Assembly: GCF_963675165.1 (NCBI RefSeq)
Contig: NC_087385.1
Span: 1,798,501 to 1,862,500 of the forward strand
Direction: 5' to 3'
DNA: 64,000 nucleotides
Source of the DNA: Halichondria panicea
Taxonomy: Eukaryota > Porifera > Demospongiae > Suberitida > Halichondriidae
The first letter of the stretch is position 1, and every line of letters starts with the position of its first letter. Under the pieces are notes generated by a model. That model made no database searches and was not told the DNA's origin. It saw nothing but the letters and a program-made list of their open reading frames with translations. The translations under genes and the position numbers were made by a program. Positions 22,126 through 60,202 of the stretch are shown piece after piece.

Positions 22126-22187
22126 GAGCAACACTGAACTCATACTTTGATCAATAATTTATCTCAAACTCAATTCACAGCAGTGTT

Positions 22188-25100
22188 ATGGCTGACTTAG
22201 CGACTCTCAAGAGACGAAGAGGTACTATAAAGGCTAGCCTTGCTAGGCTCACCACGAAACTAGCTGAACTGGAAGACTCGGATCGGGACGCATCCTTCTC
22301 AACCCATGCCCAACAGTACGTTAAGAAGCTTGAAACACTTGATGCTAGCTTCAAAACTCATCACCTCGCTATTATGGACATTGAAAAGGAAGAGCAACTT
22401 GGCGCAGAGCAAGAAGCTCTTGATCAACACGACGAAGATATCAAGACCCTATCTGTGAGATTGCAAGTGTTATTGTCCTCTACTGCTACTTTGACTGTGA
22501 CACCTCCTGAGACTCGCTACCTCCCAGACCGTGCCGTTCTTGAGCGTCGCTCAGCACAACCGCAAGAAAGGCTCCTAGCCATCAGTGAAGACGTCTCTAG
22601 ACTCTCGGGTGATCCCAGCGAACTCCATCTAGTTTTTCTTCATCAAGAACAACTATCAGACCTCAAGAAGGAACTGTCAGACCTCAGAAACGAAGTACTG
22701 GTAATCACCACAGACACCTCAGATGTACTCTGGGTGGATACACAACGACAAGACAGAAGTATATTTGATGCATCTGTGAAAGTTAAGAAGCTGCTACACA
22801 GCCCACCCTCTGATCCAACTGAAACTCTCACACCAGAACCTCATGGTGTCAAGCTACCTAAGATCGATGTACCCACATTCGACGGCGATATGTTACACTG
22901 GAAAACATTTTGGGAACAATTTGACATAGCGATCGACGGCCGTTCAGACATTTCCAACACGGAAAAACTGGTGTACTTACGTCACTCCCTCAAAGATTGT
23001 ACAGCTAAATCTGTAATAGAAGGATTGTCTCACACTGGTGATCAGTATGCTGAAGCTATTGCCTCCCTGAAGTCTCGCTATGACCGTCCTCGCATCATCC
23101 ACCAAGCCCATGTCAGAAAAATCTATGAAGTGGCTAATCTGAAGGAAGGCTCAGGAGAGGAACTAAGACAGCTGCATGACACTGTACAGCAGCACTTACG
23201 AGCTTTGAAAGCGATGGGTCATGAACCCTCTGGCCCCTTTATCACCTCACTACTTGAGCTGAAGCTGGACAAAGAGACCATGTTCGAATGGCAAAGGGCC
23301 AGTCAAGATTCCTCTGACATACCCCACTACAGCAAGATCCTCAATTTCCTCGACCTGCGTGCTCAAGCCTCAGAAACATGCTCAACTGATGCCAAAAAAC
23401 ATCCTCGTTTTGACCAGAAGAAGTTCAACACAAGGACAGTAACCTCCCATACCTCGAGTGCTACAGACGCAACTCCGAAATGTCCCCACTGCAAAACCCA
23501 AAGGCATCCTGTATATGTCTGTCCTCAATTCAAGTCGCTTCCTCACGACAAGATGCTGGCTGTGGTCCACACAAACAGTCTGTGTCTCAACTGTCTTCGA
23601 CCAGGTCACATTGTAAGAAATTGTGTCAGCAACAACCGTTGTAGAAAGTGCCAGAAATCTCACCACACTCTACTTCACAATGAAGCGAAGACTCCACCTG
23701 ATGAGGAAACTTCTGCATTCGCCGTAGCTCCTATGGTTTCAAGCAATGCCCAGCCTGGCTCCTCAGGGAAAGCCCTTCTGATGACTTGCCAAGTACTACT
23801 TCACTCCCCCGATGGCTCGCAAGTCCATGCCCGTGGTCTTATTGACTCTGGCTCCTCAACTTCATTTATCTCTGAGCGCTTGGCACAATCTCTCTGTCTC
23901 CCTCGATCGACTCAGAATATCAGAATCTCAGGGATCGCTGGCATATCCCATGGCTCTCCTTTACACTCAATCGCAAGTTTCAAAATCTCTCCTGTCCTCT
24001 CACCCAAAGAGCAGCTACAAGTCTCAGCAATCGTTGTGCCACGTGTAACTTGCGATTTACCTATTCAACCTATCCATTTCGACTCAAAATGGAAGCACCT
24101 CTCTAACCTCCAACTCGCAGATCCTGACTTTGGACAACCCAACAAGATCGATATACTTTTGGGAGTAGATGTCTACGCCGATGTAGTACTGCAAGGCCGG
24201 CGGAGTGGACCTGTTGGGACTCCTGTGGCATTCGAGACAAAGTTTGGGTGGGTTCTCGCTGGAAGAGTAAACAAGCTCACGATCCCATCTGAAGTTACAT
24301 CTCATCATGTGACAGCTATTTCAGGAGATGATATCCTACGCAAATTCTGGGAATTAGAAGAAGGTCCTAGGGATTGCTCCAACTTCTCTCCAGAAGAACG
24401 TTTTGTCATTCAGCACTATGCGAACACTCACACCAAAACAAACACTGGTCGGTTTGTAGTTCCCTTGCCAAAGAATCCTCAAGCGAAGCCACTTGGCGAG
24501 TCCAGGTCTTCAGCCATCCGTAGATTTCTCTCATTGGAGCGTTCACTGCACGCAAGAAATCAGTTTCAAGAGTTTGCCTCAGTAATGCAGGAATATGTGG
24601 ATATGAACCATGCTGAGCTGGTCCCAGAAACAAACTTGAAGAAACCTAGTGAGAAGGTATTTTACTTGCCCATGCATGCCGTTCGCAAGGAAGACAGTAC
24701 TACTACCAAGCTCCGAGTTGTATTTGATGCTTCTGCGAAGTCAAGCACTGGCGTCTCACTCAACGACACTCTACTAGTTGGACCGACCGTCCATCCTCCT
24801 CTCATTGATGTGCTACTCCGTTTCCGGACTCACCGTGTTGCCTTGACCACGGATGTTAGTAAAATGTATCGGGCCATTGATCTAACCATGGATGACAGAG
24901 ATATGCACAGATTTGTATGGAGAAACGATCCAAACGACCCCCTTTGTGACTACAGGATGACTCGAGTCACATTTGGTGTTTCAGCCTCCTTTTTTGCAGC
25001 CAACATGTCGGTAAAACAAAATGCCATTGACCACGCGACAAACTACCCACTGGCCGCAAATGCTGTAAACTACTCATTCTACGTCGACGATGGGTTGACT

Positions 25101-27236
25101 GGAGCAGACTCCGTCTCTGAAGCTATAGAGTTACAGCGGCAACTTCAAGACCTTTTTTCCCTGGGAGGGTTCCTCCTTCGGAAGTGGACGTCCAGTGAAC
25201 CATGTGTCATCGAAGACTTGCCCGCTGAATTGAAAGATTCCAAATCTACACAGACTATACCTTCATCTGAAGAATATACCAAAACTCTTGGAATCCAGTG
25301 GAACGCCCACAAAGATCACTTCAAGTTGGCTATTGCTAGTCCACCCCCACTCGAAAGCATAACCAAACGTGGGCTACTCTCTGACGTCGCTAAGACATTT
25401 GATGTCCTAGGATGGTTCTCACCGTCGACTATCAAAGTCAAAATCCTAATGCAACTACTATGGGAGTGTAAGATTGACTGGGATGATCCTGTCCCTTCTG
25501 ACATCCAAGATGCGTGGATCCAATGGAGAAAAGAATTACCACTCCTGTCTCAAAAACACATCCCTCGTTGCTACTTTGACAAGAAATCTCAACCTCACTG
25601 TCTACAGCTACACGGTTTCTCAGATGCTTCGGAAGTCGCATATGCAGCGGTTGTATACCTACGCATTACGGACAAGTCTGAGAATGCTCAAATCTCTTTG
25701 GTAATGTCGAAGACAAAGGTTGCTCCAATCAAGCGGTTGACAATCCCTCGTCTGGAACTATGCGGAGCACAGTTGCTCGCCCAGCTGATACACCACGTCA
25801 GACAAGTGCTCGAAATTCCCCTTTCTCATGTTTTTGCTTGGACAGACAGCACTATTGTCCTCAACTGGCTAGATGGATCCCCCAAAAGATTCAAGACCTA
25901 TGTAGGCAACCGTGTCTCGACCATAGTTGATCTCATTCCACCTGACAAGTGGAGACACGTAGCTGGAACAGAGAACCCTGCTGATTGCGCTTCAAGAGGT
26001 CTCTACCCCTCTGAGCTTCTGAATCACTCTTTATGGTGGGACGGTCCGATCTGGCTCAAGGAATCTTCTAGCAGTTGGCCTGAGAAGTTCCCTCTACCTT
26101 CAAACAAGAAAGAAATTGAAGAAAGTGAAGTGTCGCTATCTGCACTCACCCTAACTCCTACCCCAATCATACCCGTTGACAGATTCTCTGGATATAGCCA
26201 CTTGAAACGCATTACTGCATGGATGATTCGTTTTGTAACAAATTTTCAAACAAAAAATCATGCTGAACGAAGCAAGGGAAATCTCTCAATTAGTGAACTG
26301 CAAGCAGCTGAGAATTACTGGGTTAAGCTCATTCAGACTACTCACTTTGGATCTGATATTGTATCTCTTCAAAGAAAACATGCTCTCTCTGCCTCCAGTC
26401 CACTCTTGCCTCTACAACCATTCATTGATTCTTCAAACCTCCTTCGCGTTGGCGGTAGGAGGCAGCTCTCACAGACGTCCTACCAGTCTCAGCACCAAAC
26501 CATACTGCATGGGAAGCATCTCCTTACTCATATGATTATACGCGATGAGCATCTACGCCTGTTACATGCTGGTCCAACACTTCTCGGAGCTTCTCTATCC
26601 CGGCGCTACCATATAGTTGGTGGACGAAAGTTGATTCGATCCATTGCTCGAAAATGTTTCACCTGCCGTAGATATACAGCAAGACCCAAGCCACAAATGC
26701 TTGGACAACTCCCTGTTGAGAGAATTACACCAGGTTTAGTGTTCGACAACGTTGGTGTGGACTATGCTGGTCCAGTCTTAATCAAGTACGGCTACGTACG
26801 CAAACCAAAGTTGGTGAAGGCTTACATATGCGTGTTTGTCTCCCTCTCAGTGAAAGCAGTCCACCTGGAGTTGGTGACTGACCTAACATCTGAGGCATTC
26901 ATTGCTTGTTTCAAACGCTTCATTGCTCGACATGGCCTCCCCTCACTTGTATGGAGCGACAATGGCACAAACTTTACCGGAGCTGCCAGAGAGATCAAGG
27001 AACTCTACCAATTCCTCCAGACCCAATCCACTCAAGACGAAGTCAACCGCTACCTTTCTGACAAAGGAGTGACATGGAAATTCATCCCTCAGCGCGCACC
27101 TCACTTCGGTGGAATCTGGGAAGCCGCCGTCAAATCAACAAAGACCCACTTAAGACGAGTTTTGGGTGAAGTGAAACTAACTTATGAAGAGCTGTCTACT
27201 CTGTTAGCCCAGATTGAGTCCTGTCTCAAAAGCTGA
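22188..27236 (+). CDS. BEL/Pao Gag-Pol polyprotein, interrupted in integrase
   Basis: 1682 codons from ATG 22188. Order (approximate residues): coiled-coil N-terminus; Gag core with PTFDGDMLHWKTFWEQF near 228 (DUF1759 type); zinc knuckles CPHC...HPVYVC near 431 and CLNCLRPGHIVRNC near 467; aspartic protease LIDSGSSTSFIS near 550; reverse transcriptase with TKLRVVFDASAKSSTG near 841 and YVDD near 965; RNase H LHGFSDASEVAYAAV near 1142; integrase with zinc-binding H..C..C near 1458 and catalytic core VGVDYAGPV, WSDNGTNFTG, HFGGIWEAAVKS near 1522-1650. This is the full BEL/Pao plan in a single frame. A stop at 27234 cuts the protein just after the integrase core, and the same frame continues open beyond it. 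Confidence 0.95.
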   Translation: MADLATLKRRRGTIKASLARLTTKLAELEDSDRDASFSTHAQQYVKKLETLDASFKTHHLAIMDIEKEEQLGAEQEALDQHDEDIKTLSVRLQVLLSSTATLTVTPPETRYLPDRAVLERRSAQPQERLLAISEDVSRLSGDPSELHLVFLHQEQLSDLKKELSDLRNEVLVITTDTSDVLWVDTQRQDRSIFDASVKVKKLLHSPPSDPTETLTPEPHGVKLPKIDVPTFDGDMLHWKTFWEQFDIAIDGRSDISNTEKLVYLRHSLKDCTAKSVIEGLSHTGDQYAEAIASLKSRYDRPRIIHQAHVRKIYEVANLKEGSGEELRQLHDTVQQHLRALKAMGHEPSGPFITSLLELKLDKETMFEWQRASQDSSDIPHYSKILNFLDLRAQASETCSTDAKKHPRFDQKKFNTRTVTSHTSSATDATPKCPHCKTQRHPVYVCPQFKSLPHDKMLAVVHTNSLCLNCLRPGHIVRNCVSNNRCRKCQKSHHTLLHNEAKTPPDEETSAFAVAPMVSSNAQPGSSGKALLMTCQVLLHSPDGSQVHARGLIDSGSSTSFISERLAQSLCLPRSTQNIRISGIAGISHGSPLHSIASFKISPVLSPKEQLQVSAIVVPRVTCDLPIQPIHFDSKWKHLSNLQLADPDFGQPNKIDILLGVDVYADVVLQGRRSGPVGTPVAFETKFGWVLAGRVNKLTIPSEVTSHHVTAISGDDILRKFWELEEGPRDCSNFSPEERFVIQHYANTHTKTNTGRFVVPLPKNPQAKPLGESRSSAIRRFLSLERSLHARNQFQEFASVMQEYVDMNHAELVPETNLKKPSEKVFYLPMHAVRKEDSTTTKLRVVFDASAKSSTGVSLNDTLLVGPTVHPPLIDVLLRFRTHRVALTTDVSKMYRAIDLTMDDRDMHRFVWRNDPNDPLCDYRMTRVTFGVSASFFAANMSVKQNAIDHATNYPLAANAVNYSFYVDDGLTGADSVSEAIELQRQLQDLFSLGGFLLRKWTSSEPCVIEDLPAELKDSKSTQTIPSSEEYTKTLGIQWNAHKDHFKLAIASPPPLESITKRGLLSDVAKTFDVLGWFSPSTIKVKILMQLLWECKIDWDDPVPSDIQDAWIQWRKELPLLSQKHIPRCYFDKKSQPHCLQLHGFSDASEVAYAAVVYLRITDKSENAQISLVMSKTKVAPIKRLTIPRLELCGAQLLAQLIHHVRQVLEIPLSHVFAWTDSTIVLNWLDGSPKRFKTYVGNRVSTIVDLIPPDKWRHVAGTENPADCASRGLYPSELLNHSLWWDGPIWLKESSSSWPEKFPLPSNKKEIEESEVSLSALTLTPTPIIPVDRFSGYSHLKRITAWMIRFVTNFQTKNHAERSKGNLSISELQAAENYWVKLIQTTHFGSDIVSLQRKHALSASSPLLPLQPFIDSSNLLRVGGRRQLSQTSYQSQHQTILHGKHLLTHMIIRDEHLRLLHAGPTLLGASLSRRYHIVGGRKLIRSIARKCFTCRRYTARPKPQMLGQLPVERITPGLVFDNVGVDYAGPVLIKYGYVRKPKLVKAYICVFVSLSVKAVHLELVTDLTSEAFIACFKRFIARHGLPSLVWSDNGTNFTGAAREIKELYQFLQTQSTQDEVNRYLSDKGVTWKFIPQRAPHFGGIWEAAVKSTKTHLRRVLGEVKLTYEELSTLLAQIESCLKS

Positions 27237-37600: not shown

Positions 37601-40600
37601 TGGCAGATAAGTTAATTATGACGTCTTAATAAGACTAAATTTCGGCGCTTTGTGCCCTCTTTCATCTATGATAGCACCCCTTTCTCGCTACGCCCCTGTA
37701 ATGGCCGGGCCTATATGTGACAGGCTCTGGGAAACAGACCAATTGGAGTATAGATATTGGTATTGAGCAATAGCCAGATTTATAGACTAAAGTGTAAATT
37801 TTTTTCTTGGCTATCTACTACAGTCTTTCTACTACACCTCTCTGCAAAATCTGATGCTCTGAATCCAACTCTTTCCACCAAAGCGCTTTGTCTAAGCATC
37901 CACCATTACCTTACTTTTCCCAATTTAGCAATCTTTGAGTGGGCGTTTCTCATCTTCTATTCTTTGCTCTATCATCTGGTATATAGATCGCCAAAAATAT
38001 AGCTTGCGCCAATTGGTCTGTTTTCCCAGAGACAGGGCCGTAAGAACCAGGGAGGCAGTTCCCAGCCCCCCCTGGTTTTCAGACAGTGAAATGGGGTGGG
38101 GCTCTCTGCAGCCAACAAATCACAGTCCTGATATTATATTTAGTGCCTTTTAATCTAACTACATTGGTTAAATGCATGTGGTTTGTTGCATCAACACTGT
38201 ACAGTAACTAAAGTAAGTTGATCCACATGCAGCTGAAATTTATATAGCTAGAGCTCACTATGGCACAAGGAGTATTCATTCTTTTTTCTCTTCAGTACCT
38301 CAGCCTGCATGCCCATGATTAAGAAGGTAGGCAAACTAAGACCTTCTTCTTACGAAGCTCGATGAATTCCCAGCGTCTATTCTTAGTTTATATACACAAG
38401 TCGCTAACTGATTCGCTTGACTTTGAAGCAGTTGCTCGTGACTTTGCTTCCACCAACACACGTCGAATAAACTATTTTGCTATAGCTCTCAGATGCAGAT
38501 TATTTCATTCATGTATCTTTCTCCTGTTCATCTCTGAGAACATTCAAATGTAAAAAGTTCGCCTCCGGCGGAACAGGAGGGGAATTTCCCTTTCCCGGAC
38601 TCATCCCCTGCGTCGCAAGGAGAAGGTCCATTCCTTTTTTCTGACCCTCCACCTAAACAATTTCTTACGGCCCTGACTGAGCCTGTCGCATAGCTATAAA
38701 TGTAGTTTTGAAGTTGAGTTGTGAATCTGGTTGCCTGTACATTTTAGCAGGCTAGCTACGTTCTTGTGTCTCTGTTGGTAATTATTGAATTAACAGTTAC
38801 ACACATGTGCAAACAAATAATTATATGTTGGTGGGGCATTGCAGAATATTGGGTCCATGTGGCACGACCAAGAATCACATCAAACCAGAGATTGCTCTTC
38901 AATCTCTGCTCACACTCTGGATGATTTAAGCCACAGAGCTAACTCTCAATCAATATCAAGTATCGAGTATCCAACTTTCAACAATAACTTCTATAGAATC
39001 TAGCCTCTCCACTGAAATTATTTTGCTGATGACAGGAAGTGAAATTCAACCGCAACTAATTAAAAGAGATGTGGCTTCTGGCCAAAATGTTTCTGCTGCT
39101 GGCGCGCCCAGGGAAAAAACTAGCTGGGCAGGTTGCTCCCCCTTTCTATAAATCCTGGCTACGCTCCTGCATGTATATATAATAATTATAGTATATATAC
39201 CGGGTACTAATTTTAGCGAATTTATAATTAACGCTAAACTAAGTACGCGCTAATAATAAAACGCAATTAAATGATAAAAAAAAAATTTTTTCTTTTCTTT
39301 TTTCTAATGTACTTTTGAGAGTATGCTATAAGCAAGTTAGCCCTTTTTTCGTCTGTATCTGACTCCAAACTTTTCATTCAACCTTAACTCACACATTAGT
39401 TACTAGTAGCCCATGCAGAATCCAGCAATCTGATTGGTCAGTACAGGGTTTCTATTTTCCATATTAACCTGTAAATTCTCATATAAACCTGTAATTTTCA
39501 TATTCACAACAACCATTCATTATTTTGTGTTTTTCAAACATGTTTTTTGTAGATTGTATTATAAAAAACAATGAGAAGTAACTGTTCTGTTTTTGGTAAT
39601 GACATAAAATTATAATGTTCAGTCGCTGTTAATACGTTCGTTGTTGGATGTAGGCATAGAGAGATTGATGGTAACGTTGCAGGTACTAAAGTTAAAGTTT
39701 GGAGGCATAAATTGACAGCAGTTGGTTTGTGAGTTCTGTTGCACTGCCATCTGTGAGTGATCAGTGTGTACCAGTATGTTAATTGGCTTTACGTTGAGGA
39801 TGTCTGAAACTGACTTCTTTTGACACTCAGAAGTTCTCTTGTAGCTGCGAACTCCTTCCAAGCTTCGGTGTCCAGTTGTTTCCATTATCATTTGTTCGTC
39901 CACTCCAGCGTTGTAGAGTCTAGTAGCAGCAGTTGCACGGAGAGAATGATTCGTTCGGTACCCCTTAATACTAGCTGCAGAGCATAGTCGAGCCACTGTT
40001 TGGTCCAGTGTATTGTGGCCAATTGGTTTGTTCGAAAACCAAGTAGTAGGTGTTGGGTTTTTCAAGGCTCGAAAGTAAAATGAATTTTTAGGACAATCTT
40101 TTGGCAGGAGCTATTGGTAAAGCTTGAATAGCCGAACGAAGCATCTTTCAGGGTTTTCGGGATTGTTGTAGTGAGACACTACTTTTGGCTTGAGTTTCCT
40201 GCATGCCTTTCAAGCCTCCTGGTCGATTTTTAGATATGTCTTCTTTGTATTTCAAATACGACCGCTGTCCTTCAACTTCAATTACTTGAATTTGGCATGG
40301 TTCTGACCTCAATTGACGATGTTCGCTACCACTTCGTAGAGCAAAGTAGACACCATTCATAAAAGTACCGTATCAACCAGTGCTTGTGGAGTTTTGCATC
40401 CAAGAAGACCTTTGTTCCATAGAACTTCTTCTTCTTCTGTTAGAGGTTCAGCCTTCTTCTTTTGTGACCCTAGCCCAGCTCTCTGCAAGCGCTTCATTTC
40501 GGAGTCTAGGCACATTCGAAAGTCAGCAAAACAAGCATCCTTGAACAGGTCAATCCCGGGATTTCCATTCCATCGCAAATACCTCTGTATGCCACTCACA

Positions 40601-43600
40601 ATGTGGTGCAGTGTATCAGGGGGAAATTCTGAGCCATTGTTCTTCCGAATCTGAAAAATGAAGCATTTCAGATTCGTTCCTCGGATTTCAGGTCACTCAT
40701 AGTAGAATAACATCCCCATGGCACTTTAATCGGTACTCACACCAGTCATTCCATAGCTTGAAGCAGCTAGTACTTTGTATCTGAAGTTGTGCTATTAGGA
40801 ATAGCATTCTTCTTCAATTTTTCCATCTCATTTTTTGTTAACTGAGGTGCAAATGCACGCACTTGCTTGGAGGTAGAGGCACTGCTTGAAGAAAGCTTCA
40901 TTCGCTTTGAGTTAGGTAGAGAAGATTGTGCAGGTTCTGTTGGCTAGTCCAGCTCCTCCTCCTTTCTTTGTTTTGTAGAAAGAGTAGCCAGCTCCGCCTC
41001 CACATTTATGTCGTAGAGGGCGGGGTCTATGGGCTCGGTCATTATTATGCCGAGTACTTCTTCAGAAAAGAGCTTGTCTAGGCCTAGGTCCAGTGTGGAT
41101 TATAAAAAATCTGACAGGAACTGACTTATGTCAGACCATAACCAAAATGCTCTGTCATTGTAGTTTCTTGTTCTGCCATGACTGTCTCAAGGCCCGACTA
41201 ATGAGGAAAGTCTAGGGCCTGATGCCCTGAGACATGGATCTACCATGCATTATTATTTATAGCTCATTGACGTTCATTCTGATAAAATATGATATAAATA
41301 ATTATGACAGTCTAATTATTAATATGCACAAGTGAACATTTAGAGTAAACCACTGAAGATCAGCCACCATGATAAATCGGCCGCTCGTACGCCAACACAG
41401 CACTTGCAAATTGATTTATTTTTGCTACTATATAGAGCTCTTGATGTGATGTTCCTATGAGCCAAACGAGACTTGCAACCAACGTTGTGTTCCGGAGTTA
41501 GAGTTAACTTTCCAGCGCTGCCGAAAGTACATATATTCAGCCAATTGCATGTATTTCCGGCACAACGATCTTCTCTAGAGTATGGAGGCACGATCCAGCT
41601 AAGATTAACTTCTAGTAGTAGCTAACTATGTCTACTAGCTGCATGCAAAATATGAAACTCTGTGGTGCAGCTGTTCCGCTACTAGCAACGCTTTTTTCTC
41701 ACAAATCTACTGATTGAAATTCGGCCACGCCCCATTGCAGGTTATAACATCATTAGCCTCGACTCCAACCGCCCCAACTATTATAAACAGCAATCCTCAA
41801 AGATTATATGGTAACACAGACAAAATAGACAAAATAGACTACAAAAAGAACATAAAAACAATAAACAATATTATTATTACTACTGGCTACACGACATACA
41901 AAACCATGTTTTTTGAGTATCATTAAAAACAGCGTTTGGAATGTTTTCGCAATCCTGGTGGTACCATTTACTGCAACTGTCACATGACGCCATATCCCCA
42001 AACCTCGATGTGACTTCCACATCAGAATATCGGCACCTACAGTATACAGGAACCTGCGTTTTTGCGACTATTGTCTTGGGGCAATCCCTTTTTTTTGCAG
42101 CTCGTGGGAAGCGTGACAGTTCACGATTGTTGAAGCAACGCTCCAGATGAACTCTCATCATCGATTCATCGTAGCTGATTTTCAAAGGGTTTCGACCAGA
42201 ACATAAATCATAAGCCATAGCGATGGCAAACAAACCACAAGAATCACCAGTATACTGAAGTTGAACATTCACAACTTGGATTGTGAAACGATCTTTCATA
42301 CAATGGAGAATCGTGCAAGACTGTTCAATAATGGTAGGGCCAGGTTCTATGTGAAGACTGTCATACAGCTGTATTTCACTTGCATCAGATGATAATTTAT
42401 TTGATAAGCACGCCCAATGAAATCCTCCAACATGAATTATTTGCACAAATTCATGAGCTGACGATCTCCACTGGAGATTTTCGAGCAAGTACATAGTATC
42501 TTGAAGTCCGTTTTGATGAGGGAATTCTCTTCTGAGCAGCATATTTGCAGCAGAAATATGATTTGCTGACAGCCAAGCATTACGTTGAAGGGCTTGTTTC
42601 TCATAAAGAGAGAGACCAAGATCACTAACCCAATCTTTTAAGCACAGATTTGTTTCTGAGTCATCAAGCAATGATTCATTGGATACTTGAAAGTGTACCT
42701 ACAGATACAATGACATACGTAACAAGATGCTCATAGAGCATCATAACAAATATCTTACCCCACGAAAATTACCCGCTGTATGATATACAACTCTATGATA
42801 TTATCCTATGGAGTGTAACTGCACAAGTAATACATTATTTACCTTGTATGCCTTCGAGTCACCAGCACGTGTACTAAAGGGCGTAGATTTGACATTCCTT
42901 GCAGCACTTTCCCCGCTGCTTTTCACTGGGCTCTCAGGATCAATGACAACAACAGGAGCTTGGTCGTCTGGAGCTGCATTTTACCATGAATATACAGTCA
43001 GTACAATACATGCATGTACACAAATACAAACCTGTCTCGGTCTTTCTCCCAGTCTGAACACTCACTCCTATAAATGCACACCAGAATCACGTGGTAACAA
43101 AACAATGAGACCCACACATATACAAGTACATGTACATGTACATGCACATTACTTACCAGCGCGTGTCCTAGATCGCGTAGATTTGACATTCCTTGTACAT
43201 GTAGCACTTTCCCCGCTGCTTTTCACTGGGCTCTTAGGGTCAACGACAACGACAGGAGCTTGGTCGTCTGGAGCTGCATTTTACACAGTAAGTACAATAC
43301 ATGCATGTACACAATGCAAACCTGTTTTCTTTCTCCCAGTCTGAACACTCACTCCTATAAATGCACACCAGAATCACGTGGTAACAAAACAATGAGACCC
43401 ACACATATACAAGTACATGCACATGTACATGCACATTACTTACCAGCGCGTGTCCTAAACGGTGTAGATTTGATGGTGGTTGTAGAACTTTTTCCACTGC
43501 TTTTCACTGGGTGAGCTTGGACGTCTGGAGCTAATTAATTGAGAAGGTCAATCCACATGTGTAGATATACATGTATACATTGTGACAACTCACATGTACT

Positions 43601-46600
43601 AAGAGGAGAACTCTCAAAACCACCGCCACTGAATGTATACGTATCACATAGGGTATCTGACCAGTTATCCGGAGGATCTATGTACATGTACACGACTGCA
43701 TGACGTATAAAGGAACACGACAATTTGTATTGTGACAGCAATCATAATTATGTTCACACATAAGCTCACCAGTTACTGTTATTTTTACAGGATTGGTGGC
43801 CTGATCCCTACTGTGATGATTGGGTGGATCTGTATGAGCACAAAACTTATACATAGTTGCTACGGATAAAGGGATAGGAGGAATAACTCCACAAGTAATA
43901 AAGGTGCATTACTTACCAAACAGAGAAAGCTGAAGAGGGCTTACAAGTAAACTGTCCTCATCGCTGTCACACACCTCATCTGTAGTACGATAAACCGAGT
44001 AAGCACAGCACATGTAACAACAGTTAAACAAGCCAAATACCTTTTGTCTCTGTCTTGCTCTTGTCTTGTTTCTCAGTCTTGCGACGGGTTCCTATAGTGT
44101 ATAATATGAATGCATGTATGCAATGTACAAATAATTATGATGGTAATAATTATTATGAAACCTACCTGTTGATTTTGGTTTCGATTCAATAAGTTTTTTT
44201 ATATCATCTGATACAGCTGAACCTAACGATATAAAAGTATACTATAATATATCTATGTGTAATATTCGGACTTACTTTTCTTTAATTCTCTGATGTACTT
44301 ATTTTGCTCTTTTCGGAATTTCTCTTGTGCTTTATCCACTTCCTTTAATTCCATTTTTTGCCTTTCTTCTGAAGATGTTGCCACTCTAGATGTCTTTCTC
44401 GGCTTGATTGTTGGAAGCTTATGGATTGGCTCAGGGTAAGTTAAAATTTCTTTAAGGGGTCTTCCAGCAGTTGGATATGTGTAGTTTCTGGAAGCATCAG
44501 TTTCTTTTCGGGAGTACGACTTTCGTGACGGAGTCAACAATGGCAGAAATGGCAACCCATTCACATCTTCTTCCAAAACGCTTTCCTCCAGATACTCAGG
44601 TGGCATGATTTTACTCCTGTCAAGTGGATACACTCCTGTTGTTTCAAATCCGGACTGAACATTTACCATCGTTAGTGCCTGAACCCATGCCTTCTTAAAC
44701 AGACTGCTAAACGAGAATCTGCTGAGCACCTTTCCTGGATTTTGGGCCAAATATTCATGGCAGAATTGACTATAGCGAATTTTAAGGGGACCGAAAATCC
44801 CCTTATCAAGTGGCTGCGACAGGTGCGTAGTATTAGGGGGGAGAATAAAGAGAATAACTTTTTGCTTTGCTGCAAGACGGATGGTTTCAGGTGAATAGTG
44901 TGTGCTGTGTCCATCCATCAATAGCAATAATGGGCGAACAGCAGGGGCATAACGTAGAAATAAGTTATTAAACCAGACGTCGAAAAGCTCAGTGTCAATC
45001 CACCCATTATCAGAGAAAGCATGCAACGTCCCATGAACTTCACCAGCTGCCATGTCAGGGTGCATGGACTTCCCATTCCAGATAACCATCGGGGGAATAC
45101 AGTAACCAGCAGCACTGACACATGCAACTACAGTTATTTGGGTCTTTTTTCCACTCGTGATACATGAAGGATTTTTCATTCCTTTTTTGCAAACAACTTT
45201 TGGAGGATGGTGGTCCAGAGGCATGCCTGTCTCGTCAACATTAAAAATATGTGCTGGTGTGTCTAGAAGGTCATACTCTACTAGAACCTTCTCCAACATG
45301 TCAAAGTAACTCGAAATAACTTCTGGATCTGTGGCTTTTGCTCTTGCTACAGACAATTTAGGAATTCGCAAAACTAGTTCCGAGTGTCGCTTTGTGAAGC
45401 TTTCATACCAACCATGAGTGACTGTGACCTTGACTCCTTTACGGTCGCACACTCTTTGCACAATTGCAATTACATTACTTCTGGTTTTAGGAAAGCCAAC
45501 AGAGGCACATCTAATCAAGAACCTGGTCAGTTCTGCTTCTTCTGCATCAGAGAGATACTTGTTTGGGCCACTTTTGGCACCAGGAAGAGTGCTTCCTCGA
45601 TAGTAATCGCCCAGTGTGGACCTAGGAATACCATATTCTTCAGCAGCACGTCGTTGACTCAACGTACCATTTCTAATAGCTGAACAAGCAGTGCTTACGG
45701 TTTTCAAATCCCAATGCTTGTATGAGGGTGGGCGATTTTTTGAGTTAACTTCACATACAGTCGCAGCTTTCTTAGTACGGCTATAAAATATTCTTTCTTT
45801 TAGCGGTACCTCAGCCATATGTAACCTACAGAATAAGCAAAGACAAAAATAAATGTTCAGCACCATAATTGTGGGGTTCTAAGTTTGTCTCAAAGTGAAG
45901 TGAAGCTGTTGTTATTACAACACTATACAAGCACACTGTAAACCATTGCCAAAACATAGATACAAATTATGGCCATGAAGCTAGCTAGCTCATTAATTAC
46001 CTAGAAGCGAGCCTAGAAGCACCTAGTACCTGGAAACACGTCTCACACAGTAGCACTTTCGATTTATCCACGTGGCAAGATAGTTTTGAAAGCAATGGGC
46101 GTGGCTGAATTTCAATCAGTAGATTTGTGAGAAAAAAGCGTTGCTAGTAGCGGAACAGCTGCACCACAGAGTTTCATATTTTGCATGCAGCTAGTAGACA
46201 TAGTTAGCTACTACTAGAAGTTAATCTTAGCTGGATCGTGCCTCCATACTCTAGAGAAGATCGTTGTGCCGGAAATACATGCAATTGGCTGAATATATGT
46301 ACTTTCGGCAGCGCTGGAAAGTTAACTCTAACTCCGGAACACAACGTTGGTTGCAAGTCTCGTTTGGCTCATAGGAACATCACATCAAGAGCTCTATATA
46401 GTAGCAAAAATAAATCAATTTGCAAGTGCTGTGTTGGCGTACGAGCGGCCGATTTATCATGGTGGCTGATCTTCAGTGGTTTACTCTAGTCATTGAACCA
46501 TCCTATAAGTATTCAGCCAGTGAAATGGTTGACTCATCTTCATCAGGACTGGTTGTAGAGCTAGATGTGCTTGTTTTGCTCAGATTCACAACACAGTCAT

Positions 46601-56220: not shown

Positions 56221-59200
56221 GCCCCGTTTACACGAGGCCTTTAATCCGGGTTGGAATCCGGATTAAACCTAACCGCGCTCATGTAAACGGCCCTTATCCG
56301 GGTTCTAATCCGGATTAGCCAACCCACCTTTGGAGGTGGTTCAGATTTGTGTCAGAAGCGGTTTAGCTGTGAGTAAGCTAATTCTGAGGTGTTGTACATG
56401 TTTGTGAGTGTTTCTAGAGTAAGCCTGTAGCTTTCTATCAGTCCAATGTTTGCGCAAATGAAATTAGTGGTCATTTTACTATGCCCACTACTCAGAAAAA
56501 TCGGCTATACCTTGGTATAAAAAATCACAATTCATGAATATAATTAAACCTATTGGCATCAATATTATGGTTACATTGTATGCATGGAGTGTAACATATA
56601 ATTATGTCACTACTGTAACAACTGTAACGCCATAGTCACCACTGTGTAACAACTGCAACACACGTCACAACTGCATGTAACAACTGTAACACATGTCACC
56701 ACTGTAACAACTGTAACACCAGTCACCACTGTAACAACTGTAACACCAGTCACCACTGTAACAACTGTAACAACTGTAACACCAGTCACCACTGTAACAC
56801 CAGTCACAACTGTAACAACTGTAACATATGTCACCACTGTAACAAGTCTGTCAGCACTGGAACAATTGTAACAACTGTAACAACTGTAACACCAGTCACC
56901 ACTGTAACAACAAAACTGTAATACATATCACCACTGTAACAACTAGTCACCACTGTAACAACTGTAACAAGTAATACCAGTCACCACTGTAACAACTGTA
57001 ACAACTGTAACACCAGTTACCACTGTAACAACTGTAACACCAGTCACCACTGTAACAACTGTAACACCAGTCACCACTGTAACAGCTGTAACACATGTCA
57101 CCACTGTAACAACTGTAACACCAGTTACCACTGTAACAACTGTAACACCAGTCACCACTGTAACTAGAGCACTAAAGTGCAAACCCTCGGCTGGTGACTG
57201 ATAATTAAGAAACCAGAAGAGTGATAATGCAGTGCATGTAGCATGTATGACTAGCATGCGCTAGCACAGCAACTCAAGAGCAATAAAACTAAACTAACAA
57301 CGTACATGCATGAGACATGCACTATGGACTGGGATCACAGCAAAGAAGTCTTAGACTAAGAGAAGTATGGCTCCTTCCAGGCTGGAGTACGTATAGGATC
57401 CAGAGTCAGTCAACAACCAGTCACAATTCTACTTTCTTGACAATTGTTCCTGGTACGGGATCACTTTAGCTGAAAATACATAATCAAGCCTTGACTACGT
57501 ATTTTCAGCGGAAGTGATCCCGTACCTTGACTCAAGGCCACGTGGCAAGTTTAAGCTTCTTAGCTTTTGCTCGCTTTTACTCGACAAAGAAGCTTTAACA
57601 TCAAAATCTGCCACTATTTAAACCAAGATATTGTTGTGTGAAGACTACCTATGCTGCAAACGCAGTGCTATGGCATCCAGGTGAGTAGATATACTCGTTA
57701 CAAACAAACAAACAAACAGACAAACAGACAGACTACTATAACCCGTGGCCGCCCACGCGCCTCGGGTTAACAACTGTAACACCAGTCACCACTGTAACAG
57801 CTGTAACACCAGTCACCACTGTAACAGCTGTAACACATGTCACCACTGTAACAACTGTAACACATGTCACAACTGTAACAACTGTAACACCAGTCACCAC
57901 TGTAACAACTGTAACACCAGTCACCACTGTAACAACTGTAACACTTGTCACCACTGTAACAACTGTAACACTTGTCACCACTGTAACAACTGTAACAACT
58001 GTAACACTCGTCACCACTGTAACACCAGTCATACAACTGTAACACTTGTCACCACTGTAACACATGTCACCACTGTAACAACTGTAACACCAGTCATCAC
58101 ACTAACAACTGTAACACATGTCACCACTGTAACAACTATAACACCAGTCACCTCTGTAACAACTGTAACACATGTCACCACTGTAACAACTATAACACCA
58201 GTCACCTCTGTAACAACTGTAACACATGTCACCACTGTAACAACTGTAACACTCGTCACAACTGTAACAACTGTAACACATGTAACAACTGTAACACATG
58301 TCACCACTGTAACAACTGTAACAGCTGTAACACTTGTCACCACTGTATCAACTGTAACATCTGTACAACTGTAACACTTGTCACCACTGTAACAACTGTA
58401 ACAACTGTAGCACTTGTCACCACTGTAATGACTGTAACACTTGTCACCACTGAACAACAGTAACAACTGTAACACTTGTCACCACTGTAACAACTGTAAC
58501 ACATGTCACCACTGTAACGCTAGCAATTGTAACGACTGTAACAACTGTAACACTTGTCATACTGTAACGACTGTAACACTTGTCACAACTGCTGTAACAA
58601 CTGTACAACTGTAACAACTGTAACACTTGTCACCACTGTAACAACTGTAACACTAGTCACAACTGTAACGCTAGTCACCACTGTAACAACTGTAACACTT
58701 GTCACCACTGTATCAACTGTAATATCTGTAACGCTAGTCACAACTGTAACACTTGTCACATGCAACCAACAACTGTAACACTAGTCACAACAGTAACACT
58801 AGTTCTTATAGAACTTATATAGTCTATAGTGGTGCCAGACTATAGTGTTACAGTTGTGACTAGTGTTACAGTTGTTACAGTGGTGACATGTGTTACAGTT
58901 CTGTTGTTACAGTGGTGACTGGTGTTACAGTTGTTACAATTGTTCCAGTGCTGATAGACTTGTTACAGTGGTGACATATGTTACAGTTGTTACAGTTGTG
59001 ACTGGTGTTATAGTTGTTACAGTGGTGACTGGTGTTACAGTTGTTACAGTGGTGACTGGTGTTACAGTTGTTACAGTTGTTACAGTGGTGACTGGTATTA
59101 CAGTTGTTACAGTTGTTACAGTGGTGACTAGCGTTACAGTCATTACAGTTGTGACTAGTGTTACAGTTGTTACAGTGGTGACATGTGTTACAGTTGTTAC

Positions 59201-60202
59201 AGAGGTGACTGGTGTTACAGTTGTTACAGTGGTGACAAGTGTTACAGTTGTTACAGTGGTGACATGTGTTACAGCTGTTACAGTGCATGGTGACTGGTGT
59301 TACAGTTGTTACAGTGGTGACGTGTGTTACGGTGGTGACTGGTGTTACAGTTGTTACAGTTGTTACAATTGTTCCTGTGGTGACAGATGTTACAGTTATT
59401 ACAGTGGTGACATGTGTTACAGTGGTGATATGTGTTACAGTTTTGTTGTTACAGTGGTGACTGGTGTTACAGTTGTTACAGTTGTTACAATTGTTCCAGT
59501 GCTGACAGATGTTACACTTGTTACAGTGGTGACATATGTTACAGTTGTTACTGTTGTGACTGGTGTTACAGTTGTTACAGTGGTGATTGGTGTTACAGTT
59601 GTTACAGTTGTTACAGTGGTGACTGGTATTACAGTTGTTACAGTTGTTACAGTGATGACTAGTGTTACAGTTGTTACAGTAGTGATATGTGTTACAGTTC
59701 TGTTGTTACAGTGGTGACTGGTGTTACAGTTGTTACAGTTGTTACAATTGTTCCAGTGCTGACAGACTTGTTACAGTGGTGACATATGTTACAGTTGTTA
59801 CAGTTGTGACTGGTGTTATAGTTGTTACAGTGGTGACTGGTGTTACAGTTGTTACAGTGGTGACTGGTGTTACAGTTGTTACAGTTGTTACAGTGGTGAC
59901 TGGTATTACAGTTGTTACAGTTGTTACAGTGGTGACATGTGTTACAGTTGTTACAGTTGTGACGTGTGTTGCAGTTGTTACAGTTGTTACAGTGGTGACT
60001 ATAGCGTTACAGTTGTTACAGTAGTGACATAATTATATGTTACACTCCATGCATACAATGTAACCATAATATTGATGCCAATACCCTTATTATAGAGGTT
60101 TAATTATATTTATGAATTGTGACTTTTTATACCAAGGTATAGCCACTACCTGACCCGGATTCAATCTGGATTCGACCCGGATTAGGTGTCGTGTAAACGG
60201 GG

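Follow-up and report, generated by a model that had tools for sequence, protein, structure and literature searches.

Ulp1-type proteases are carried by unrelated DNA transposons (Ginger1, Mutator, and Crypton). In the accessible part of PMC2836005, Ginger1 elements are described as encoding a DDE recombinase with a C-terminal Ulp1-type protease, Ginger1-9_HM having a PHD finger as well, and most of the Ginger1 families listed have introns; the Ulp1-bearing Mutator elements named there have an alike protease but a Mutator transposase. CryptonF and CryptonS also carry a C48 (Ulp1-family) protease, although their recombinase is a tyrosine recombinase and the CryptonS peptidase is an additional protein (accessible part of PMC3212892). 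The pogo superfamily is characterized by HTH_psq, DDE_1, DD35D, and TA duplications, with terminal inverted repeats of 392 to 856 bp in some unclassified insect elements; the fusions described in the accessible text concern host genes (CENPB, POGK, and POGZ), none being a transposon with SENP and PHD domains, and the words “protease” and “PHD” are absent from that main text (PMC7386202). No published pogo element with a Ulp1/SUMO protease or PHD tail was found in the literature searched, as far as its texts were accessible; it included two pogo surveys, and most subscription journals were outside its scope.

The window, a 64,000-nucleotide stretch of the Halichondria panicea genome, contains a pogo-type element whose predicted gene extends into such a tail. 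Its ends and exons are as follows.

41341..41342, unstranded: TA target-site duplication, left
41343..41732, plus strand: left terminal inverted repeat, beginning GAGTAAACC, at the gene's 3' end
46097..46486, minus strand: right terminal inverted repeat, at the gene's 5' end, 100% complementary to the left repeat
46487..46488, unstranded: TA target-site duplication, right
44276..45818, minus strand: exon 1, with the ATG, the HTH_psq DNA-binding domain, the DDE_1 transposase, and a Lys/Glu-rich tail; exit phase 1
44166..44222, minus strand: exon 2, linker, phase 1-1
44041..44091, minus strand: exon 3, linker, phase 1-1
43917..43979, minus strand: exon 4, acidic linker, phase 1-1
43770..43829, minus strand: exon 5, linker, phase 1-1
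43594..43677, minus strand: exon 6, linker, phase 1-1
43444..43530, minus strand: exon 7, linker repeat exon, first of three
43157..43273, minus strand: exon 8, linker repeat exon, phase 1-1
42843..42973, minus strand: exon 9, linker repeat exon, entered in phase 1 and left in phase 0
41880..42698, minus strand: exon 10, protease domain, then PHD finger and stop

With the flanking TA counted, the inverted arms (41341-41732 and 46097-46488) are 392 nt long and 100% complementary, and a TA stands on either side of GAGTAAACC...GGTTTACTC, in agreement with the TA duplications and long, nearly identical inverted repeats reported in the first-pass annotation. The ten-exon, in-frame model proposed there was recovered by an exon chain built independently, with nine introns, all GT/AG and all predicted from sequence, 3012 nt including the stop, and 1003 residues; both chains have the 44276/44222 and 42843/42698 junctions. 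One pre-mRNA would be spliced into a single fused protein; the exon-1 frame reads 23 nt beyond its donor to a stop at 44253.

The domains of the predicted protein are the following.

45591..45689, minus strand: HTH_psq (Pfam PF05225), E 3.5e-10
44646..45143, minus strand: DDE_1 (Pfam PF03184), E 1.7e-20, with D195, D302, and D338 of the model
42114..42656, minus strand: SENP/NEDP1-like protease domain, exon residues 15-195, with His94, Asp113, Gln148, and Cys154
41889..42047, minus strand: PHD finger, exon residues 218-270, Pfam E 1.6e-8

Both transposase matches pass the Pfam cut-offs, whereas the CENP-B component (CENP-B_N/Tc5) that had been claimed beside psq and DDE_1 has no Pfam match in the window protein at E ≤ 1; the same holds for integrase families, and so for the Gypsy-type integrase with H2C2 zinc finger and GPY/F motif of Ginger1. 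The catalytic aspartates were picked by motif, and 35 residues separate D302 from D338, giving DD35D. TA duplication, terminal inverted repeats, an N-terminal HTH (psq), and DDE_1 with a DDxD triad together place the element in the pogo superfamily, an assignment made by domains, DD35D, TA, and inverted repeats. The element shares the tail of Ginger1 (Ulp1-type protease plus PHD), but has psq/DDE_1 and TA duplications where Ginger1 has a Gypsy-integrase-type DDE and an H2C2 zinc finger (accessible part of PMC2836005). Having this tail, the element may resemble Ginger1 in how it works while belonging to another group, and a module known from other transposons appears fixed to yet another transposase.

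The proposed C48 protease with His, Asp, and Cys is borne out: while the protease in the window protein itself has no Pfam match, Peptidase_C48 is matched at E ≤ 0.1 in 16 of 36 aligned members, the window member not being among them. The predicted structure of this part has the SENP/NEDP1 fold, with NEDP1 and SENP matches less than 1 Z apart and identities of 10 to 18% to the solved SENP/Ulp1/NEDP1 members listed; two viral processing proteases match this fold with lower Z, 6lj9 at 10.9 and 9lik at 9.2. In the 36 aligned relatives, Gln and Cys are invariant and His and Asp are present in at least 90%. We take His94, Asp113, Gln148, and Cys154 to be the catalytic and oxyanion residues; predicted structure and alignment give the window protease the fold, His-Asp-Cys, and oxyanion Gln of the CE clan. 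It resembles the SENP/Ulp1/NEDP1 (C48) peptidases in fold and catalytic residues; what sets it apart from them is the attached PHD finger and, according to the gene model, a transposase in the same protein. The PHD finger claimed earlier passes the Pfam cut-off, and its Cys/His residues, putatively the Cys4-His-Cys3 ligands, as well as Met236 and Trp245 are almost invariant among the 36 relatives; the last two are, as in PHF2, presumably aromatic-cage positions, and the finger may be of the H3K4me3-reader type. Protease and finger would agree with SUMO trimming and histone reading that guide or protect integration, as proposed in the first-pass annotation, SENP and NEDP1 being tied as fold matches.

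The same genome contains nine copies of the window family, with TA at both ends in eight, one end of the ninth (C6) not having been found. Since the arms are identical and the sister copies match at ~92 to 98% over the first 1001 bases, the earlier view of the element as recent is supported. Six of the nine share one internal deletion that takes out the DDE and leaves the psq part of exon 1 joinable in frame to protease-PHD, for which reason we read them as derivatives; the resulting frame is open in four of the six. According to the first-pass annotation, sister elements with only one of the two parts between their inverted repeats would refute the fusion. This pattern was half found: the six copies lack the DDE, yet keep psq along with protease-PHD. 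Such a natural derivative with an open tail makes it possible to study the tail separately from transposition.

Other copies with the same domain order, which the first-pass annotation had suggested seeking, exist in that genome: four further families, at 40 to 49% protein identity, carry transposase and protease-PHD inside their own long inverted repeats. For C1b, C6b, and C16a, no inverted repeats above shuffles were seen in short flanks, and they were found once wider flanks were compared. Phase-1 introns join both parts in frame in two of the four families, and the phases of donor, linker, and acceptor are consistent across three families; C16a and C16b are broken copies, and C6b has no Met ahead of the psq region in frame. 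His, Asp, Gln, and Cys of the protease are all present in C1b and C6b. Between families, pS is saturated and pN restrained, alike in transposase and protease-PHD, and these sequence comparisons show similar constraint on both modules. Support for the fused architecture within a pogo-type element comes from the intron phases, from the absence of Met between the exon-1 tail and the protease, and from the layout common to four diverged families.

How the fusion is used admits several readings. The same protein might serve target choice, its PHD finger steering integration to H3K4me3 nucleosomes and its protease helping only in target assembly or repair. The reader type of the finger suits this account, and a Ulp1/OTU repair role in transposition has been proposed for Ginger1 (accessible part of PMC2836005), but the DDE-less derivative retains the tail though unable to integrate by itself, and we consider this account unlikely. 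Slightly less probable in our view is one element with two separate proteins, a transposase stopping at 44253 and a protease expressed from a separate promoter or upstream exon. The readthrough past the exon-1 donor and an in-frame Met in a C6b linker exon would allow for this; however, no Met is encoded between model residues 490 and 783 of the window gene, C1b exon 2 has none ahead of the protease core, the splice phases match in three families, and exon 1 of the deletion derivative still joins in frame.

It is very unlikely that the protease cuts the fusion itself, freeing the transposase from protease-PHD in the manner of viral CE-clan polyprotein processing. While the fold is shared with 6lj9 and 9lik and exon 6 encodes GGG, the Gly-Gly position shifts from exon 6 in the window gene to the transposase tail in C1b, the C6b linker has no Gly-Gly, and the top fold matches are deSUMOylases and deNEDDylases. 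A captured protease-PHD passenger with no role would be in line with described pogo transposases, which are without such a tail (accessible part of PMC7386202), but is hard to square with the conservation of the four protease residues and with a restrained pN, under saturated pS, similar to that of the transposase; we give it hardly any credence.

The reading that we prefer, though we regard it as evenly poised, makes the element a recent and apparently intact representative of an old pogo-type lineage, its transposase gene extended 3' by a SENP/Ulp1-fold isopeptidase and a PHD finger, with a chromatin-reading tail most likely directed against SUMO-dependent silencing. The psq/transposase part would place the fusion on the element's own inverted repeats, the PHD finger would keep it at H3K4me3-type active chromatin, and the protease would free silencing or repair proteins at the site of SUMO (or of NEDD8/ubiquitin), allowing the element to escape SUMO-dependent repression and to be cut and joined. 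An unspliced, transposase-only form ending 23 nt past the exon-1 donor is perhaps made too. The DDE-less derivative (psq plus protease-PHD) would be a stand-alone anchored isopeptidase. It is tempting, if rather doubtful, to go further and see a pogo lineage with a self-anchored histone-reading deSUMOylase as its counter-silencing effector, the DDE-less copies being a second, transposase-free effector gene that serves the whole family as a derepressor. Deleted P elements, in contrast, are known as repressors. The deleted copies may also have spread as ordinary non-autonomous copies, their open frame being a chance matter; within the family, pairs differ by 0 to 23 changes, too few for dN/dS to show selection, and pN exceeds pS in some pairs (exon 1 of the window copy and C10a, exon 10 of the window copy and C1, and exon 10 of C10a and C1).

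Of the 58 transposase loci compared, 45 lack a protease in the first 4.5 kb downstream, and many of these are fragments. Thirteen transposase-protease pairs were counted, nine of them copies of one family, against a random control that takes no account of transposon clustering. Within 12 kb there are 21 pairs; the eight left out comprise three downstream on the same strand, at distances of 4.8, 6.5, and 7.5 kb (the 7.5 kb pair being at the locus of L074), another 0.25 kb downstream on the opposite strand, and four that lie upstream. L076, a candidate transposase-only sister that would have spoken against the fusion, was rejected because it is a C16b copy (97%) whose end falls within the protease region, and L077, from a multi-copy family, has no protease in the 2.7 kb read, a stretch that stops short of its 3' end. 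Module trees of transposase and protease resolve only in part, and among the eight pairs compared in them, three are linked solely by two contigs of the same size: P0023/P0118 (8103), P0008/P0130 (820161), and P0053/P0114 (1674267), from 105/106 and 120/120 listed sizes. Only the first supports one element, because the contigs of the other two are too long. With the full-model query restricted to the protease, none of 475 candidates for a single ORF with both parts reached E ≤ 0.01, as expected since the gene has introns, and no relatives were confirmed among 5 pattern matches in viral contigs and 63 in prokaryote contigs. At three loci of the sponge genome (L048, L055, and L063), a protease lies beside integrase-like sequence, either Ginger or Ty3/Gypsy.

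Both the limits of the pogo-type element and the ten-exon gene put forward in the first-pass annotation were regained from the raw sequence. The element proper (41343-46486) starts GAGTAAACC, has TA on both flanks and is bounded by inverted arms (41341-41732 and 46097-46488) of 392 nt, including the TA on each side, that are 100% complementary. A splice-site scan with the frame held open gave one open gene model of 3012 nt, stop codon included, that encodes 1003 residues; all its predicted introns are GT..AG, and the last exon encodes a protease fold and a finger of the PHD type.

Exons of the window gene (splice-site scan)
45818-44276, minus strand: exon 1 (psq and DDE_1 transposase)
44222-44166, minus strand: exon 2 (linker)
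44091-44041, minus strand: exon 3 (linker)
43979-43917, minus strand: exon 4 (linker)
43829-43770, minus strand: exon 5 (linker)
43677-43594, minus strand: exon 6 (linker)
43530-43444, minus strand: exon 7 (linker)
43273-43157, minus strand: exon 8 (linker)
42973-42843, minus strand: exon 9 (linker)
42698-41880, minus strand: exon 10 (protease and PHD finger)

Eight of the nine introns are in phase 1, and the last is in phase 0. Exons 7-9 are copies of a single exon, with repeat units of ~287-300 nt; symmetric phase-1 exons can multiply without loss of frame. The linker exon is found in tandem, with three copies at window positions 43157-43530 and more at C10:3227972-3232166. A short stretch of intron 9/10 (42743-42798) lies behind 37 of the 56 matches listed, seven in close inverted pairs, and behaves as a small dispersed repeat would.

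Other copies with the same domain order, a search proposed in the first-pass annotation, were sought in the host genome (131 Mb, 39 contigs), and four diverged loci hold both parts inside inverted repeats. The protease exon matched at least 142 places (merged to 140 loci) and the transposase at least 88 (merged to 58 loci). Of the 58 transposase loci, 13 are followed on their own strand by a protease locus no more than 4.5 kb away, namely, the nine copies of the window family and the four diverged loci; this count leaves out eight further pairs within 12 kb. Uniform random placement gave an expectation of 0.13 such pairs (maximum of 2 in 2000 trials), the true expectation being higher because transposons cluster. 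Each of the four diverged loci has its two parts framed by long inverted repeats.

Diverged loci with transposase and protease
C1:14026398-14033773 (C1b): inverted repeats of 420 nt, 97.6%
C6:744979-751953 (C6b): inverted repeats of 129 nt, 99.2%, and 271 nt, 97.8%
C16:~3835854-3842216 (C16a): inverted repeats of 310 columns, 93.9%
C16:2070742-2076107 (C16b): inverted repeats of 262 columns, 92.4%

C1b and C6b show TA-GAGTAA at either end, C16a and C16b at the left end; the outer right end of C16a was not found in the inverted-repeat comparison of its flanks. C16a has stops and C16b has frameshifts, and a C16b copy in truncated form is present at locus L076. Judged from these sequences, the transposase plus protease-PHD layout predates the window family, and the pairing is old and conserved. 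In all ten pairs of five families, pS was 0.74-0.97 and pN 0.26-0.42 (codons reading stop omitted), with transposase and protease pieces alike. By these counts, change across the five families is saturated at synonymous sites but not in the amino acids, and constraint on the protease is about equal to that on the transposase. The window family itself has too few differences to gauge constraint.

Against other genomes, the protease exon matched 106 proteins at E<=0.01, and 888 of 7999 scored transposase candidates reached E<=1e-10 (120 of the 888 listed). Among the matches listed, three protease/transposase pairs are on contigs of equal size (8103, 820161, and 1674267 bases), and the two members of each presumably share one contig; the values for the 8103-base pair are 55% (protease) and 61% (transposase). 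The window and 8103-base contig sequences pair with good support in both the transposase and the protease tree (100/100 and 95/93), and the protease tree places the 820161-base contig next to them; the remaining branches of the two trees are mostly weak. Path lengths for the eight rows common to both trees correlate with r 0.45, which 861 of 40320 label permutations matched or exceeded. Since transposases without a protease within 4.5 kb (L074, L075, L077, and L078) intermingle in the tree with those having one, one has to assume that tails were lost or went undetected. At L074, a short match to the protease occurs 7.5 kb further downstream; of the four, L077 was followed over 2.7 kb downstream, where neither a protease nor the 3' end was found.

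The fused architecture is very probable. Apart from deletion copies, splice joins were modelled for the window gene, C1b and C6b. In C1b, a single intron of 182 nt, phase 1 at either border, is predicted; its removal would connect the protease with the Lys/Glu-rich tail of the transposase in a product of 842 residues that starts with Met. The predicted C6b join runs from a phase-1 donor through a 60-nt exon, also in phase 1, to a phase-1 acceptor and comprises 880 residues; these are numbered from the stop ahead of the frame, whose first Met falls within the psq region. The join is likewise open without the 60-nt exon. In the window model, the stretch between residues 489 and 784 is free of Met, and residue 784 already belongs to the protease domain; the first Met of C1b exon 2 falls inside that domain as well, and the small C6b exon contains one Met. 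Thus, the start of the protease core could come only from exon 1 or an unrecognised exon in two families (window and C1b).

Copies of the window family in the host genome (three long, six short)
Window, minus strand: long copy
C10:3227425-3234690: long copy with extra exon repeats
C1:9226586-9236244: long copy with an insertion and losses
C10:2662620 (C10b), C8, C3, C6, C5, and C14: short copies (~2.7-3 kb)

Among the long copies, the transposase match is a single unbroken frame in the window copy only, being split into several pieces, with stops, in the two others. Ends and TA were inspected in all nine copies: TA stands beside both ends in eight, and one end of the C6 copy was not found. The flanking bases of the C3 and C8 copies (C3:979700-984650, L012; C8:4949700-4954650, L011) are nearly alike on both sides, so these may be one duplicated insertion; alternatively, it is as if the target site were a repeat in its own right.

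All six short copies have one junction in common, from element position 1160 to the linker-exon donor; C6 and C14 retain one extra linker repeat. In C10b, C8, C3, and C5, exon 1 stops after 496 nt (phase 1), directly abutting a GTGAGT donor, and exons 9 (phase 1 in, 0 out) and 10 follow with splice sites retained. The predicted join is open in these four (481, 481, 481, and 482 residues) and would yield a product with the psq part, one linker, the protease and PHD, without DDE. C6 and C14 are disrupted, their exon-1 frames stopping after 31 and 84 residues, which leaves four of six open. Because a phase match alone has a chance of one in three and the coding parts of the open copies are nearly identical, the open frame counts as one event and is suggestive only.

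If a single fused protein is made, psq would anchor it on the element's inverted repeats and PHD on active chromatin, and the protease would take SUMO or a like modifier off silencing or repair proteins. A counter-silencing role of the protease-PHD tail is favoured, tentatively and at even odds or slightly less, because in worms, outside the host genome, HDA-1 SUMOylation promotes Argonaute-directed silencing (PMC8131101).

Ginger1 carries Ulp1 behind a Gypsy-type integrase, with Ulp1 plus PHD in Ginger1-9_HM (PMC2836005), and oomycete Cryptons bear a C48 peptidase (PMC3212892). Ginger1 and the window element both have a Ulp1(-PHD) tail on the transposase, which is a Gypsy-type integrase in the former, whereas it is pogo-type in the latter. 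No pogo element with a Ulp1/PHD tail was found in the literature searched, and "protease" and "PHD" are absent from the main texts of the pogo surveys examined. Therefore, the kind of element is known and, as far as these searches go, its pogo-type carrier is new.

Other protease loci in the host genome (G000), with integrase-like letters recognised by eye
C11:3514815-3518543 (L048): protease ORF and PHD
C5:6561888-6565598 (L055): protease ORF and PHD, SH3_Tf2-1 match
C4:6973638-6977363 (L063): protease ORF, SH3_Tf2-1 match

The Tf2-type integrase SH3 matches are weak, under the Pfam cut-off. These loci may be either Ginger or Ty3/Gypsy elements, and in the host genome the protease module seems to be carried by several kinds of recombinase. 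L049-L051, L053, and L054, together with the many 137-271 or 106-270 matches of the protease exon, represent further multi-copy families of protease-PHD-like ORFs (~425 aa and ~200 aa); no transposase was recognised in the stretches inspected (L049 by Pfam only).

Elsewhere in the window, a minus-strand tyrosine recombinase ORF (39619-40110; PF00589, E 1.6e-12; weak DUF3504) lies ~1.2 kb outside the left end of the element. An open frame of 1692 residues (22158-27236) resembles a BEL/Pao retrotransposon polyprotein by eye, and 56597-60000 holds a long array of 9-bp units that occurs in both orientations (GTAACAACT/GTCACCACT) and has large inverted arms.
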